35,415 nucleotides of DNA, from contig JALRKE010000004.1 of the NCBI GenBank assembly GCA_023254845.1, forward strand, positions 1-35,415. Reading direction: 5' to 3'. Below the pieces are notes generated by a model. It ran no database searches. It was given only the letters and a program-made list of their open reading frames with translations, and was not told the origin of the DNA. A program made the position numbers and the translations under genes. This document shows, piece after piece, positions 25,904-33,163 of the stretch (positions are counted from its first letter, which is position 1; each line of letters starts with the position of its first letter). The DNA is from Candidatus Nanopelagicaceae bacterium. Its GTDB lineage: Bacteria; Actinomycetota; Actinomycetes; Nanopelagicales; Nanopelagicaceae.

Positions 25904-27829
25904 TCACCCTACTGTGATTGTCACAGTAGAGCCACGTTTAACCTTGCTTCCCACCTTAGGAGCGATATTCGTAACAACCTTCGTCTTCTTATTGCCAACT
26001 TTCTTGACCACAACCTTTAGCTCAAGATCTTTAAGCGCTGCAACTGCATTATCTTCAGTCATAGCAAATACATTAGGAATGAAGACGTATTCAGTTCCCT
26101 TTGAGACAATCAAGGTAATTGTGCTGCCTTTATCTGCTTCACCCTTGCCTGGAGTCTGGGAGACTACTGCGCCAGCAGGTAGATCTTCACTGAAGATGTA
26201 TTGAGTCTTGACATCAAATCCTGCTTCAACTAATTCATTAAGGGCTTGCTCGCCACTCTTTCCCTTGTAATCAGAGAACGAGACCTGCTCGACTCCTTTG
26301 GAGATAAAGAGCGTTAAGGAAGTATCGCGCTTGACTCTTTCGCCACGTACCGGAGTAGTCCTAAGAATCAAACCCTTAGGCAGATCACTAGAGAACTCTT
26401 CAACTATCTCACCAACAACCAACTTATTATCTTCTATCAATTCTTGTGCTACCGCAGGTTTAAGCCCCACTAAATCCGGGATGATGAAACGCTCTTTCCC
26501 TTTGGAGACAATTACAGTAACCAAGCCATCGGGATCAACGCGTCCACCGCCAGCTGGATCAGACTTAATAATTTTGCCCTCACCAACATCTTCACTAAAT
26601 GCCTCAACGCCAACTTCTAGCCGCAACCCAAGATCAGATAACTCAGAGCGGGCATCTTTCACGGTAAAACCAGCAAGAGAGGGCACAACTACCTTCGATC
26701 CAGGTCCAGCCCAGATATACCAAGAGGTGAAGAGCAAAACGAGCGCTACGAGCGCTGCAATCCGACGATTCCGCTTAACTCTAGGAGAAACGGCACGTTT
26801 TGATTCCTTCAACTTTTTCTTCGCCATCGAAATCTCCTTTTCGCTCTCTGAGTTAACCTCGGATTTATCTGAAACCTGGGTATTAGCCTTCTTTGTGCGT
26901 GGCTCTTTCTGGCGTTCCCGCACTGGTTGCTTGAGTGGCAATGGCGGTAAATCCAACTCCAAACTTAATTGTCTCTTTTTAGGATCTAACTTCTCAGAGA
27001 TCGTACGGAGCTCCTCTAGAAATACAGCTCCATCGGTCGGGCGTTTATCTGGATTAACATCAGTAGCCCTTAAGACTAGGTCATCCAATTCAGATGGAAT
27101 TGCGCTATTGCGCGTCGAGGGAGCGGGTACGCGATCATTTACATGCCTAATTGCAATTTGAACCGGATCCTCACCTTGGTAAGGCTTCTCTCCGGTTAGT
27201 AACTCAAATAGAACTATTCCAAGTGAGTAAACATCACTTCGCGCATCAGCTATCCCTCGCTGTACTTGCTCCGGCGAGAGGTAAGAAACACTTCCAAGAA
27301 TCACGCTTGACTCGGCTGTCATGGTGCTACCGAGTAGGGCTCCACGCGCCAATCCAAAGTCGGCAATCTTTATTCGGCCTTCTTTAGATACCAAGATATT
27401 TTCTGGCTTGATATCTCTATGAACTATTCCAATTTTATGCGCAGCAGCTAAGGCGCTCGCTACCGGAATAATCAAGGGAATAGCACGTTCTGCAGGAATC
27501 CGTCCCTGTTCATGCAAATAGTCTCGAAGCGTCGCTCCTTCAACTAATTCCATGACGATGAAGACACATGGCGTCCCACCTTGGTTCCATCCCTGATCTA
27601 GTACAGCGACAATATTTGGATGCGAGAGCGAGGCAGCAGCCTTTGCCTCTCGAATAAATCGCTCGACAAACTTCTCATCTTGAGCGAGGTGGGGATGCAT
27701 TATTTTTACTGCTACTTGTCGATCTAGCCGAAGATCTAAGGCAGCATAGATTGTGGCCATGCCTCCGGAGGCAACGACGCGATTTAACTTGTAACGATTA
27801 TCTATAACTTCGCCAGTTAAATCAGACAC
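25904..27829 (-). CDS. PASTA-domain Ser/Thr protein kinase
   Basis: VASGGMATIYAALDLRLDRQVAVKIM, HRDIKPENILV, DFGLAR, SPEQVQ; one TM segment; four PASTA repeats. Confidence 0.93.
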   Translation of the reverse strand: MSDLTGEVIDNRYKLNRVVASGGMATIYAALDLRLDRQVAVKIMHPHLAQDEKFVERFIREAKAAASLSHPNIVAVLDQGWNQGGTPCVFIVMELVEGATLRDYLHEQGRIPAERAIPLIIPVASALAAAHKIGIVHRDIKPENILVSKEGRIKIADFGLARGALLGSTMTAESSVILGSVSYLSPEQVQRGIADARSDVYSLGIVLFELLTGEKPYQGEDPVQIAIRHVNDRVPAPSTRNSAIPSELDDLVLRATDVNPDKRPTDGAVFLEELRTISEKLDPKKRQLSLELDLPPLPLKQPVRERQKEPRTKKANTQVSDKSEVNSESEKEISMAKKKLKESKRAVSPRVKRNRRIAALVALVLLFTSWYIWAGPGSKVVVPSLAGFTVKDARSELSDLGLRLEVGVEAFSEDVGEGKIIKSDPAGGGRVDPDGLVTVIVSKGKERFIIPDLVGLKPAVAQELIEDNKLVVGEIVEEFSSDLPKGLILRTTPVRGERVKRDTSLTLFISKGVEQVSFSDYKGKSGEQALNELVEAGFDVKTQYIFSEDLPAGAVVSQTPGKGEADKGSTITLIVSKGTEYVFIPNVFAMTEDNAVAALKDLELKVVVKKVGNKKTKVVTNIAPKVGSKVKRGSTVTITVG

Positions 27830-27838
27830 AACCGAATT

Positions 27839-28426
27839 TTAGATGAAGAAGTTGCCATCTACTCGAATTGTGGCGCAATCCCGAGTGTTTTCGCTCTTGA
27901 AGTGCTCTTGCTCACGGATCTGCCAAATGCGCATCTCGGTTTCTAGGTAATCACCATCCCTTCTCAGGACTCTCTGTAATCCGACTTCTGAATCAATATC
28001 AATCCAGATTAATTCATCAGTAAAAGCCCTCGTTGCTTTCTGTCCTGAACCAACTCCCTCCAGGATTAGTAGCTTTGGAAAAGGATGAGAAATTAGATCT
28101 CCAAATGACTTACTTAGCCAATCGTATTTTCGAAATCCAAGTGGTTTGCCTTGAGCAGCAGGCGTAAGTATCTGATTTACAAGTGTTCGCGTGAGCTGTG
28201 CAGTAAGCGCATCTTCCCAACCGTTGTAGAGGTCATCCATATGAATGGTAAGTACTTGGCCACCTTCATAGTTCTCCGAAATGCGATTTGCCAAAGTTGT
28301 TTTTCCTGAGCCCGCGGGTCCATCGATGGATATCGCTCGACTCAATGCAGATTTACGTGGACCTGTGCGTAGTCGCTCCAAAATATTCTCAAGTGAGATA
28401 TTTGCTACTTTCTTAGCTTCAGCCAT
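27839..28426 (-). CDS. Uridine-kinase-like P-loop kinase of unknown substrate
   Basis: AISIDGPAGSGKTTLANRIS Walker A, IHMDDLYNGW, LLILEGVG; ATG 28426 chosen, overlaps upstream pnuC-like gene by 22 nt. Confidence 0.75.
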   Translation of the reverse strand: MAEAKKVANISLENILERLRTGPRKSALSRAISIDGPAGSGKTTLANRISENYEGGQVLTIHMDDLYNGWEDALTAQLTRTLVNQILTPAAQGKPLGFRKYDWLSKSFGDLISHPFPKLLILEGVGSGQKATRAFTDELIWIDIDSEVGLQRVLRRDGDYLETEMRIWQIREQEHFKSENTRDCATIRVDGNFFI

Positions 28427-28974
28427 CTGACCAATCCGTAGATAGCTACAAGAGCGAAGACTGAATACAAGAGTGCGGTGAAGTAAAATTCTTGACGCGC
28501 ATAGTGCCAAGTTCCAAATAAGTTGATGGCAAACCAGAGCGACCAGGTCTCATGGAATTGGCGGACCATAATTAACTGGGTTATGGCACTTGCTACTAAA
28601 AGGAGAGAGTCAGGCCAGGATGCAGCTGCGCCAATACTTGCGAGAACCGGAGCGGCGATTAACCAGAGCGTCAGCGCTGCTAAAGCCCAGAGCGCTCGTT
28701 CCTTTGTGGTCATATAGCGAGGTTCAACGCCAGTGGGTTTCCAACCGAACCATCCCCAGATTGCCGCGGCAATGAAGACTATTTGTAGTAAAGCGCTGGC
28801 AAGTAAATCAACGTTGAAGAAGAAGAGACCGTAGAGCGAGCGACCTAAAATCCACCATGGCCAGGCCCAGCGAGTTCCGCGAGCACCTAATGTCACTGCT
28901 GTTAAAGAAGTTAGAACTGAGGCAAATTCAAGGTATGAAACTTCATATCCCCAGGCAGTAAAAAAAGTGTTCAT
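28405..28974 (-). CDS. PnuC-family vitamin transporter; thiamine specificity (PnuT-like) predicted
   Basis: 189 aa; LEFASVLTSLTAVTLGARGTRWAWPWWILGRSLYGLFFFNVDLLASALLQIVFIAAAIWGWFGW; preceded by a TPP riboswitch. Confidence 0.8.
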   Translation of the reverse strand: MNTFFTAWGYEVSYLEFASVLTSLTAVTLGARGTRWAWPWWILGRSLYGLFFFNVDLLASALLQIVFIAAAIWGWFGWKPTGVEPRYMTTKERALWALAALTLWLIAAPVLASIGAAASWPDSLLLVASAITQLIMVRQFHETWSLWFAINLFGTWHYARQEFYFTALLYSVFALVAIYGLVRWLKLRK

Positions 28975-28975
28975 C

Positions 28976-29064
28976 TATAACCCCTTTCCAATTCGCATTA
29001 CCGAACTGGTACAACGGTCGACCCGAAGGTCCTCTCAGCCAAATTTTGGCTCCCGATTGAGAAG
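28976..29064 (-). promoter_or_regulatory. TPP riboswitch (THI element)
   Basis: Minus strand CAATCGGGAGCCAAAATTTGGCTGAGAGGACCTTCGGGTCGACCGTTGTACCAGTTCGGTAATGCGAATTGGAAAGGGGTT: AGCC/GGCT stem, CTGAGA, and CAGTTCG-GTAATG-CGAATTG stem-loop (7 bp). Confidence 0.88.
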
Positions 29065-29080
29065 AAGATTAGCATAAGCC

Positions 29081-29413
29081 GTGCTCAAGTTTGCTTACTT
29101 TGCGATGTTGATCTTTACCTTTGTCGGCTCTATTTGGCTAGAGATTTTCCTAAAAGTTGGAGTACTAAGGAGAATCAAACGCGCGATACTAAGTATTTTG
29201 CCAGTTGCCATTATTTTTCTCATTTGGGACTACTACGCAGTCGCTCAAGGGCATTGGTGGTTTGATAAAAATCAAGTTGTTGGAATATTTGGCCCCAAGG
29301 GTGTGCCGCTCGAAGAGTTCCTATTTTTCATTGTAGTTCCGCTTGCGTCATTGCTGACTATTGAAGCCGTCAGAACTCAGAGACCACATTGGAAATTTGG
29401 TGACGAGAAGTGA
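29081..29413 (+). CDS. crtYc: Lycopene cyclase domain protein, first half
   Basis: 110 aa membrane protein; FLIWDYYAVAQGHWWFDKNQVVGIFGPKGVPLEEFLFFIVVPLASLLTIEAV (PxEE motif); GTG start. Confidence 0.88.
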   Translation: MLKFAYFAMLIFTFVGSIWLEIFLKVGVLRRIKRAILSILPVAIIFLIWDYYAVAQGHWWFDKNQVVGIFGPKGVPLEEFLFFIVVPLASLLTIEAVRTQRPHWKFGDEK

Positions 29414-29715
29414 CCTATACTGAACTTGCAATTCTCAGCGTCCTATTTGTGATTGTCGCTGATCGATATCTCCTTAAGGTTCGGTTACTTGAGAAGAAGG
29501 CATACTGGACGTCCTACTCAATAATCATCTTCTTCCAGCTACTTACAAACTGGTGGCTGACCTCTAGAAATATCCTGAGTTATAGCGAAGAAGTGATTAT
29601 TGGATGGCGAATCGCATCGGCACCGGTAGAGGATTTGTTATTTGGTTTCTCAATGGTCACCCTGACTATGTCTCTCTGGATTTTCTGGGGGCGCAAAGGG
29701 ATACAGCGCTATTAG
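29410..29715 (+). CDS. crtYd: Lycopene cyclase domain protein, second half
   Basis: 101 aa membrane protein; IIGWRIASAPVEDLLFGFSMVTLTMSLWIF (PVED motif); GTGA overlap with crtYc. Confidence 0.87.
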   Translation: MTYTELAILSVLFVIVADRYLLKVRLLEKKAYWTSYSIIIFFQLLTNWWLTSRNILSYSEEVIIGWRIASAPVEDLLFGFSMVTLTMSLWIFWGRKGIQRY

Positions 29716-30620
29716 CGGGCTCTGATTGCTCTGACCCAGGCCGGTAGAGCAACACTTAATCTTCTTAGCGTGGAAGTCTTTGCTCGATACTTGAAGACCT
29801 CATAGTTGATTTTCTCCACCTCATCAACAATTCCACAGTAAAGCTCACTCGCTGCTTGGATACACGGCCGTGATGCAGCAGATAGCAGCGCAATTCCTTG
29901 ATCGGACTCACGCTTAAGCCTTCGAACTCGGTCAATCTGGAACTTCAATGCAGCGATAATCTGCGGAGTAAGTATCCTGCGTTCTAACATGGCGCGGTCG
30001 ACGCCAAATTCGGCTAACTCACGCCCGGGGAGATAGATACGGCCTCGGTCGAGATCCTCATTAACATCCCTAATGAAGTTTGCTAACTGGAAGGCAATGC
30101 CTAACTTTTCTGCAGCTACTTTCGCCGCCTCCATTTGACCCGGGAGAGTGCCAAGGATGGGGACCATTTGTAGTCCGATTACCGCAGCTGATCCATAGAC
30201 ATATTCCATCAGATCCTCAAAAGTTTCATATTCAGTCTTATCAAGATCCATGGCCATAGAGTGCAAGAAAGCCTCAAAGTAGGAAATTGGGATATTAAAT
30301 CTATTTACGGTATCAACTAAGGCTCTGCCGATGTGATCATCACTTCTTCCGGCCTTGATATCTCGAAGTAATTGAAAGCTCCAAAGTTCTAACTCTTCAC
30401 GCTTCTCCTGAGGGGATAGTTTTGAATCTAAATCATCAACAATTTCGTCCGCGTATCTCGCAAAGCCATAGAGAGCGTGAACAAAGGGCCGTTTACTCTT
30501 GGGAAGTAACTGGGTTGCTAGGAAGTAGGTCTTTCCATGTTGCGAATTAAGTCGCTTGCACTCCAAGTAAGATTGACGCAGGTTTTCATCTTTTATACCT
30601 GCCGCTTCTAACTCATCCAT
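29712..30620 (-). CDS. crtB: Phytoene synthase
   Basis: YGFARYADEIVDDLDS, YGSAAVIGLQMVPIL, LGIAFQLANFIRDVNEDLDRGRIYLP. Confidence 0.93.
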   Translation of the reverse strand: MDELEAAGIKDENLRQSYLECKRLNSQHGKTYFLATQLLPKSKRPFVHALYGFARYADEIVDDLDSKLSPQEKREELELWSFQLLRDIKAGRSDDHIGRALVDTVNRFNIPISYFEAFLHSMAMDLDKTEYETFEDLMEYVYGSAAVIGLQMVPILGTLPGQMEAAKVAAEKLGIAFQLANFIRDVNEDLDRGRIYLPGRELAEFGVDRAMLERRILTPQIIAALKFQIDRVRRLKRESDQGIALLSAASRPCIQAASELYCGIVDEVEKINYEVFKYRAKTSTLRRLSVALPAWVRAIRAR

Positions 30621-32091
30621 TTCCAGTTATTCGCTCTGCAGCTAACTTTCCAGAGATTAATACCATCGGAACGCCAACACCAGGCTGAGTTCCACTTCCA
30701 GCGAAGACCACGTTCTCAAATCCTTTAGCCATATTGCCCGGCCTAAATGGACCAGTTTGGAAGAAAGTGTGTGCACTTGCAAAAGGCGCACCCATTTCAT
30801 GTCCCATTGCCTGCCACTCAAGCGGTGTGGTCAGATGCTCAACTTCAATGGAATCGCTAAAACCGGTATATCCGCGTGACTCCATCACACGAACCATCTC
30901 ATCACGATAACGAGCCGCCTCATGCTTCCAATCAATATCAGCGCTTAGATTTGGAGTAGGGAAGAGGATGTAATAGCTCTCTTTTCCTTTTGGTGCGAGC
31001 TCTGGATCATCATGAGATGGAACCGTCACCAGCAAGCTTGGATCAGTCATTAGCCGCTTTTCATCAATTAGCTCTTCGAATACGCCATCCCAGGAGTTAC
31101 CGAAATGAATATTGTGGTGTGCGATGTGGTCATATCGCTTCTTTGAGCCAGCAAGAAGAACTGCGCAAGAAGGGGAGTAATTCAATCGTTTAACTCGTCG
31201 CGGCGTCTTATTGAGGAGTTCTCGATATGCAACTGGAAGATCCGGGCTCAAAATGATGGCATCGCACGGATAGCGGGAGCCATCCTGGGTGATTGCAGCA
31301 GTAACGCGTCCGCCACTCTTTTCGAGTTCTGTTACCTTCGAGTCGTAGTGAATCTTGACTCCATGTTTGGTTGCGGCTCCGGCAAGGGCTCGAGGTAGCG
31401 CATGCATTCCGCCCTTGGGAAAGAAGACGCCATTTACCGAATCCATATATGCAATCACGGCATAAATTGCAAGAGCTTGCTGTGGGGATACCCCGGCATA
31501 CATCGCTTGAAATGAGTAGACCCGTTGAGTTCTCGGGTCCTTTAGAAATTGCGAAACTTTAGGTGCGAGTTTGCGGAACCCACCAATTGCAATCAATCGA
31601 GCGAGATTGGGAGTGAGGAGATTAAATGGAGTGTCAATATTCTTATCGATAAAATCATTCATCTCATACTTATAAAGCTTGGTTACAAAGTCAACATATC
31701 TTCGATAGCCAGCAGCTTCATCGCCACCGATGACTTGGGCAATCTCATCTTCCATCTTGGATGTATCAGCGTGCACGTTGAGGATGCTGCCATCTGAATA
31801 GAAAGCCCGATACAAGGGCGAAAGCGGCATTAATTCAAGCCAATCTTCCAAACTTTCTCCCACACAATTAAGCGCATCTTCGATGAGTGAAGGCATAGTT
31901 AGAACAGTTGGACCGGTATCGAATGAATACCCCTCTTTCTTCAATAATCCATTGCGGCCACCGGGAACCGACTCACGTTCTAAAATTGTTACTTCATGTC
32001 CGGAGCCAGCCAATCGCAGCGCAGCGCTCAGCCCAGAGAGTCCAGCGCCAACAATTACAACTCGATCGCGCTTGCCTTTGACTCTACGCAT
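30613..32091 (-). CDS. crtI: Phytoene desaturase
   Basis: VVIVGAGLSGLSAALRLAGSGHEVTILERESVPGGRNG; FAGSGTQPGVGVPMVLISGKLAAERI. Confidence 0.93.
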   Translation of the reverse strand: MRRVKGKRDRVVIVGAGLSGLSAALRLAGSGHEVTILERESVPGGRNGLLKKEGYSFDTGPTVLTMPSLIEDALNCVGESLEDWLELMPLSPLYRAFYSDGSILNVHADTSKMEDEIAQVIGGDEAAGYRRYVDFVTKLYKYEMNDFIDKNIDTPFNLLTPNLARLIAIGGFRKLAPKVSQFLKDPRTQRVYSFQAMYAGVSPQQALAIYAVIAYMDSVNGVFFPKGGMHALPRALAGAATKHGVKIHYDSKVTELEKSGGRVTAAITQDGSRYPCDAIILSPDLPVAYRELLNKTPRRVKRLNYSPSCAVLLAGSKKRYDHIAHHNIHFGNSWDGVFEELIDEKRLMTDPSLLVTVPSHDDPELAPKGKESYYILFPTPNLSADIDWKHEAARYRDEMVRVMESRGYTGFSDSIEVEHLTTPLEWQAMGHEMGAPFASAHTFFQTGPFRPGNMAKGFENVVFAGSGTQPGVGVPMVLISGKLAAERITGNG

Positions 32092-32098
32092 CTAAAGT

Positions 32099-33163
32099 TC
32101 AACTCTTTCTTTTAGTAGCGGCAAGGGCCATCTCTTCAAGGCTCTTTGCCACGTTGATATCCAACTCTGGATGCTCGAGGGCAGAGAGAGCTTGATTCAA
32201 CAACCGTTGAATCAACTCTTCACATTCCGCGAGCGCACCCGAATCCTCTATCAATCGTTGGATTTCTGCGACTTGAATTGCGTTGAGAGTTGAATCACCG
32301 AGAGCGCGTTCTATTTTCGCCCGAACGCTCGAATCCGAGCGCTCTGAGGTCATGGCTATCAAGACAGTTCGCTTACCCTCGCGAATGTCATCGCCAGAAG
32401 GCTTTCCAGTCACTTTGGAATCACCAAAGACTCCAAGGATGTCATCGCGAAGTTGGAAAGCTTCGCCCAAAGGAAGGCCAAAGTCGGAGAGAGATTGTTG
32501 TAGCGATTCGCTCGCTCCAGCGAGAGCTGCTCCGAAACGAAGCGGGCGTTCAATCGAATATCTTCCAGATTTGTAGCGAGCAATCTTCCTGGAGCGATCT
32601 AAATCTGATTTCCCTAACGCTCCCTCTAATACATCTAAGTATTGGCCAGCCATCAACTCGGCCCGCATCTCATGAAAAATCGGAATAGCTCGCTTTACTT
32701 GGAGTTCTGTGATTCCAGATTCACTAATCATCTGATCACTCCATGCCAGCGCCAAATCGCCAAAGAGTATGGCGGCAGCAAGGCCAAATTTTTCGGGACT
32801 TCCAGAGTAGGCGCTCTGGCTATGGAGCGCTTCAAATCTCTTATGTAGCGCGGGTTTACTCCGGCGCGAGTCAGAACCGTCCATAACATCATCGTGAATC
32901 AACGCGCAGACATGCACTAGCTCTAAAGCCGAACAGGCTCTGAGAACTTGTTGCGAAGGTGTCGCGCCAGCTGCAAGATGTCCAAGATAGGCAAAAATAG
33001 GTCGGAATCTCTTTCCACCATCTAAGACGTACTCGGATAGCGCTTCGGCTACTGGATTTAGATGAGTATCAATGGCCTTAAGTTCGGATGCTCGACTACG
33101 GGTAAATGAATCTAGTTCGGCATCAATAGCGCTACGAATCTCTGAGATTCCCGGCAAAACCAC
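32099..33163 (-). CDS. crtE: Polyprenyl (geranylgeranyl) diphosphate synthase
   Basis: GGKRFRP, LIHDDVMDGSDSRR (first Asp-rich motif), FQLRDDILGVFGD (second); GTG start. Confidence 0.92.
   Translation of the reverse strand: MVLPGISEIRSAIDAELDSFTRSRASELKAIDTHLNPVAEALSEYVLDGGKRFRPIFAYLGHLAAGATPSQQVLRACSALELVHVCALIHDDVMDGSDSRRSKPALHKRFEALHSQSAYSGSPEKFGLAAAILFGDLALAWSDQMISESGITELQVKRAIPIFHEMRAELMAGQYLDVLEGALGKSDLDRSRKIARYKSGRYSIERPLRFGAALAGASESLQQSLSDFGLPLGEAFQLRDDILGVFGDSKVTGKPSGDDIREGKRTVLIAMTSERSDSSVRAKIERALGDSTLNAIQVAEIQRLIEDSGALAECEELIQRLLNQALSALEHPELDINVAKSLEEMALAATKRKS

Follow-up and report, generated by a model that had tools for sequence, protein, structure and literature searches.

A candidate thiamine kinase of uridine-kinase-like P-loop type, encoded behind a TPP aptamer and pnuT in Nanopelagicaceae

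We analyzed a stretch of 35,415 nucleotides from a Candidatus Nanopelagicaceae bacterium (contig JALRKE010000004.1; hereafter the window), whose genome is available as a 1.08-Mb assembly with 77% completeness, and found that an ORF on the minus strand (27839–28426) probably encodes a non-orthologous thiamine kinase, which would convert thiamine to TMP. This proposal draws on a conserved gene arrangement, on a lack of the other known routes, on the retention of ThiL and on a predicted fold; the proposed kinase is unrelated to the known thiamine-activating enzymes. According to the mechanism that we propose, thiamine would equilibrate across the membrane via the transporter PnuT, and the candidate kinase would phosphorylate it with ATP to TMP and thus trap the imported vitamin. 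ThiL, encoded elsewhere in the genome, would then turn TMP into TPP, and TPP bound to the leader would switch off the importer and the kinase together, the kinase gene presumably sharing the transcription unit of the pnuT gene that it overlaps.

On the minus strand, a TPP aptamer (29066–28969) is followed by a Pnu-family transporter gene (28974–28405) and then by the P-loop kinase gene (28426–27839), which encodes 195 aa when translated from the ATG at 28426. This start codon lies inside the 3' end of the transporter gene, giving an overlap of 22 nt, and is kept in close relatives (QMAEA.. in L002 and QMAED.. in L003); in other relatives, the junction is a short overlap or a near-zero gap. The first-pass annotation had described this start, this overlap, the Walker A sequence GPAGSGKTT and a DDLY motif, all of which were confirmed by the translation and coordinates. 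According to the ORF list, a PASTA-type Ser/Thr kinase gene (25904–27829, minus strand) begins 9 nt past the stop of the candidate kinase; the same neighbor is found in relatives with and without pnuT, and it is conserved context outside the proposed function. On the other side are carotenoid genes, with two short lycopene-cyclase subunits encoded on the plus strand (within 29081–29715) and, on the minus strand (within 29712–33163), phytoene synthase followed by genes resembling phytoene desaturase and polyprenyl synthase. Carotenoid genes adjoin the thiamine cassette in most of the relatives that we read.

The aptamer (28969–29066, minus strand) matches the complete Rfam model RF00059 (positions 1–105) with 42.3 bits and E 3.1e-7 in an E-value scan; this score is below the Rfam gathering score of 54.3 bits, so the element is unlisted at the gathering threshold. 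We took it as a true short variant because it matches the complete model at this E-value (3e-7), carries the conserved motifs CUGAGA and UAAUGC and recurs in relatives at the same position. No second TPP match was found in the source genome at its present completeness. Aligned to Rfam, the leader has AGGGG as the 3' strand of its P1 stem, 7–11 nt before the pnuT ATG, and this is also the probable Shine-Dalgarno sequence of pnuT. Control at translation is suggested by this overlap; the simplest reading is that TPP binding would sequester the ribosome binding site of pnuT. A plain MFE fold of the leader did not recover this overlap and was uninformative (z −0.74). Among family genomes, a fast scan with strict filters called an aptamer directly upstream of 96/133 pnuT loci, and when six of the missed loci were rescanned with lax filters, it was found in all six, five of them at E < 0.01 and the weakest (L099) at 26.4 bits and E 0.3. 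As a side observation, the UAAUGC motif provides an ATG in frame with pnuT, which is read at 28975–28998 (minus strand) as ATG CGA ATT GGA AAG GGG TTA TAG with the pnuT ATG immediately after; in several relatives lacking that leader stop, the ORF runs from MRIGK.. into PnuT.

The transporter (28405–28974, minus strand) belongs to the Pnu fold family, matching PF04973 with E 4.5e-37, and it matches TIGR01528 with 71.6 bits against a cut-off of 42.45. We predict that it is the thiamine facilitator PnuT on the basis of the TPP aptamer found upstream in the window and in relatives; PnuT is reportedly established to work by facilitated diffusion. Two irregular pnuT loci were met in relatives. One genome (G147) has two TPP-pnuT-kinase copies (contigs C27 and C89), one with an in-frame TAA in pnuT, and the second copy reflects either duplication or a mixed assembly. 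In another (G092:C1:131491-132053, L015), pnuT is apparently split by a frameshift or stop and the kinase is intact.

The candidate kinase carries three conserved motifs on the minus strand, to which we assign roles provisionally from sequence. The Walker A motif GPAGSGKTT (residues 36–44; 28295–28321) has G, G and K columns that are invariant in both alignments (A1 and A2). HMDDLYNGW (residues 62–70; 28217–28243), which contains a family-specific Tyr and Trp, is likely to be the catalytic and substrate-side loop; its D64, Y67 and W70 are invariant in the family alignment and nearly so class-wide, and D64 would be catalytic by analogy. In EGVGS (residues 123–127; 28046–28060), EGVG is invariant in 38 family members and E and G class-wide. 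The motifs HMDDLYxGW, DW and EGVGS are thus common to the family and mostly kept class-wide, which hints at one substrate class. The best curated match is NF005115/PRK06547, a "hypothetical protein" model, with 111 bits over residues 30–188, short of its cut-off of 173 bits; a relative from another family reached 125 bits. Membership in Udk is not indicated by the scores, which were 27.8 bits against 220.3 for TIGR00235 and 35.6 against 180 for PRK05480. An AlphaFold2 model built with 24 relatives in the input was confident (pLDDT 93.9, pTM 0.90), and its nearest solved folds are 1rz3 (a possible uridine kinase), uridine-cytidine kinases and phosphoribulokinases, with TM of about 0.65–0.7 and about 20% identity; the best matches are uridine kinases at E 1e-10 to 1e-11. 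The nearest P-loop group also includes 3asz, and NRK (NRK1) and PanK are among the distant relatives. From the Walker A motif, the invariant D64 and this model, the ORF is predicted to be a uridine-kinase-like small-molecule kinase, as had been read from the sequence in the first annotation.

We examined the conservation of the locus in 151 genomes of the family, 83 of them good and many being incomplete MAGs. The kinase is present in 139/151 and a PnuT-type match in 140/151, and coordinate comparison showed that in 126 of the 139 the kinase follows pnuT immediately and in the same orientation, an arrangement far beyond chance. In three further kinase genomes the two genes are split between short contigs: in two of these, pnuT lies at a contig end or close to it, and in the third the kinase is close to an end. 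No pnuT is nearby in the remaining ten. Every one of the 83 good genomes encodes the kinase (80) or ThiE (5), counting G003 and G076 under both, and every kinase-less genome without ThiE is less than 90% complete.

In the ten genomes without pnuT, the kinase still lies between the carotenoid genes and the PASTA-type Ser/Thr kinase (L066–L075). In nine of them, a thiB-like ORF is found elsewhere directly behind a TPP element (L076–L083, L085), in most cases also with a ThiP-like permease; four ThiB proteins were tested and all were recognized by TIGR01254 (198–228 bits against a cut-off of 93.4), and the one ThiP tested was recognized by a curated model. The tenth genome (G076, L084) has behind its TPP element an ORF that resembles, by eye, YkoE of an ECF-type importer. 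In three kinase-less genomes (G005, G014 and G020), the slot is shared by thiE and TPP-thiO-thiG, one at each side. Since the slot holds the kinase in one group and thiE/TPP-thiO-thiG in the other, we consider that it has a thiamine function in both. At L087, L088 and L090, thiE and TPP-thiO-thiG, on opposite strands, lie where other genera have pnuT-kinase, which suggests replacement at one locus. G005 and G020 have a second TPP element before a CytX-like HMP permease, the CytX match being below its cut-off.

Outside the family, a profile built from the family found the kinase in 195/297 genomes of the class, usually in a single copy, and we inspected its loci in 56 genomes. One genome from another family (G278) has TPP-pnuT-kinase beside odhA, at a different genomic place (L200). 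Five genomes from three families (G198, G229, G269, G338 and G392) have the kinase touching or next to a gene for an NMT1/THI5-type binding protein; the order is SBP-kinase-permease in G269 and G338, and the kinase of G269 overlaps the permease by 4 nt. Thiamine is the ligand that we infer for these neighbors, which belong to a broad protein family. Well-supported branches of the kinase tree set the NMT1-linked members apart from the PnuT-linked ones, an indication that the association arose more than once. All six importer-linked genomes lack a strong ThiE, and such neighbors are found for 6/28 ThiE-less against 0/28 ThiE-bearing kinase loci (Fisher p 0.023, a value that ignores kinship and comes from a tally made after viewing the loci). 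In G199 (L183), the kinase adjoins an ABC importer with a thiamine-like look; phosphonate-type models match it better, and it was left uncounted.

The association with TPP-regulated transporters, which the first-pass annotation had made a test of its idea, holds within the family and does not extend class-wide, where a thiamine-type importer is next door in 6/56 loci and a TPP element accompanies one of those; among 20 ThiE-less genomes outside the family, L200 was the only locus with a TPP element beside the kinase. Complementarity between the kinase and ThiE was also absent at the class level (both 126, kinase only 38, ThiE only 71, neither 31; Fisher p 0.20). Since most orthologs outside the family have neighbors unrelated to thiamine and no such complementarity is seen, the role of the kinase family in general could differ; prototrophs could also use a thiamine kinase for salvage. 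We therefore propose only tentatively, judging the chance to be somewhat below even, that the uncharacterized PRK06547-like family is a general actinobacterial thiamine kinase, which would be a further fold for thiamine activation and would explain salvage in the class.

These class-level data bear on the possibility that the enzyme is a housekeeping kinase for another small molecule, such as a nucleoside or another vitamin, and merely shares the pnuT operon in this family. Its fold neighbors (uridine kinases, phosphoribulokinase, NRK and PanK) and the broad occurrence of the family across the class, for the most part not near thiamine genes, are what such a kinase would show; however, the great distance from Udk, the almost complete alternation with ThiE among family genomes, and the independent links to PnuT at another locus and to NMT1-type importers make this explanation unlikely.

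The thiamine genes that the family has kept and lost point more directly to the reaction. Thiamine pyrophosphokinase (TPK; PF04263) was found in 0/151 family genomes and the ThiK equivalog (TIGR02721) above its cut-off in 0/51 relatives, with no ThiK match at all in the source genome. An APH-type protein scores 60–72 bits to ThiK in about 15 of the 51 relatives, and these may have an APH-type thiamine kinase. ThiC is present in 2/151 genomes and a strong ThiE in 7/151 only, the other 144 including the source genome. ThiL, which converts TMP to TPP, is present in 143/151 genomes, in 82 of the 83 good ones and, with the protein confirmed, in the source genome. Because ThiL needs TMP and ThiE is missing, TMP should come from phosphorylation of thiamine or from import. 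Five single-contig genomes of 99–100% completeness (G001, G016, G018, G028 and G040) show this state clearly: TPP-pnuT-kinase and ThiL are present, and searches for TPK, a strong ThiE, ThiC and a ThiK-like match found none.

A one-step TPK, converting thiamine to TPP with ThiL retained for other reasons, would fit a family without known TPK, and also the operon logic known in Bacteroides, where a TPP riboswitch, pnuT and tnr3 form an operon with thiamine pyrophosphorylase (PMC5613172). The two systems are alike in having an enzyme for activation and trapping of thiamine directly behind a TPP-controlled PnuT; the Bacteroides partner is a thiamine pyrophosphorylase/TPK, whereas the candidate in the window is a P-loop kinase unrelated to it, after which ThiL would complete the conversion. 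Such a one-step enzyme would make ThiL dispensable, and so the near-universal retention of ThiL in good genomes, despite the nearly constant absence of ThiE as the usual TMP source, counts against it. Uridine-kinase-type folds transfer one phosphate, which also disagrees with pyrophosphoryl transfer, and we regard the one-step reaction as quite improbable.

The first-pass annotation had named HMP and thiazole as well as thiamine as possible substrates of a non-orthologous trapping kinase. The thiamine part is strengthened by the co-occurrence, the lack of TPK and ThiK, the retention of ThiL and the several importer types; the precursor part became unlikely. A kinase for HMP, hydroxyethylthiazole or another precursor would agree with a leader that senses TPP, and NMT1/THI5-type proteins, found beside the kinase elsewhere, can bind pyrimidines, but it is very improbable because there is no strong ThiE to join the phosphorylated precursors in nearly all family genomes, including the source. 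Equally hard to credit is a nicotinamide riboside kinase serving a PnuC-type importer, in spite of the PnuC name of the curated transporter model and the distant relationship to NRK1, in view of the TPP aptamer preceding the transporter and the persistence of the kinase in genomes that have a TPP-controlled ThiB-type importer instead of pnuT.

A thiamine kinase as proposed here would resemble known systems in reaction and differ from them in protein. ThiK (YcfN) of E. coli also converts thiamine to TMP but has an aminoglycoside-phosphotransferase fold in contrast to the P-loop fold here; TPK (ThiN/Thi80) likewise serves salvage of imported thiamine and is absent from the family. NF005115/PRK06547 and the uridine kinase/PRK/NRK group (1rz3, 3asz) are the closest curated family and fold, the former being uncharacterized and the latter acting on other substrates. 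According to passages of Kang et al. (2017; PMC5301498), acI-type actinobacteria, the most abundant bacteria in most freshwater lakes, are thiamine auxotrophs lacking nearly all enzymes of de novo synthesis and salvage of thiamine, and acI strains have a THI element before a pnuC-like gene, a probable PnuT, which corresponds to the importer and riboswitch described here; the kinase is unmentioned in those passages. Coastal surveys have shown that most Actinobacteria depend on intact external B1 (PMC10881298), and standard reconstruction counts ThiK, ThiM and ThiN as the salvage enzymes (PMC6593275). In the open-licence literature, we found no paper proposing this kinase, or PRK06547, as a thiamine kinase. 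With a candidate enzyme named for the missing step, vitamin B1 use by acI becomes testable. If the proposal is true, a conserved "hypothetical protein" family gains a function and genome scoring for B1 changes, since surveys by TPK, ThiK or ThiE would miss this kinase.

A related observation concerns TPK annotation at the class level. About 100 class genomes have an above-threshold PF04263 match, and no convincing TPK was found among the sampled class genomes. The matches listed cover only about model positions 5–45 and lie in ORFs mostly of about 400 aa, for which SteA fits, and we rejected them as partial and SteA-like. SteA is annotated as TPK in M. tuberculosis and acts in cell-wall hydrolase regulation (PMC12977500); the class-level matches probably represent SteA and invite false annotation as TPK.
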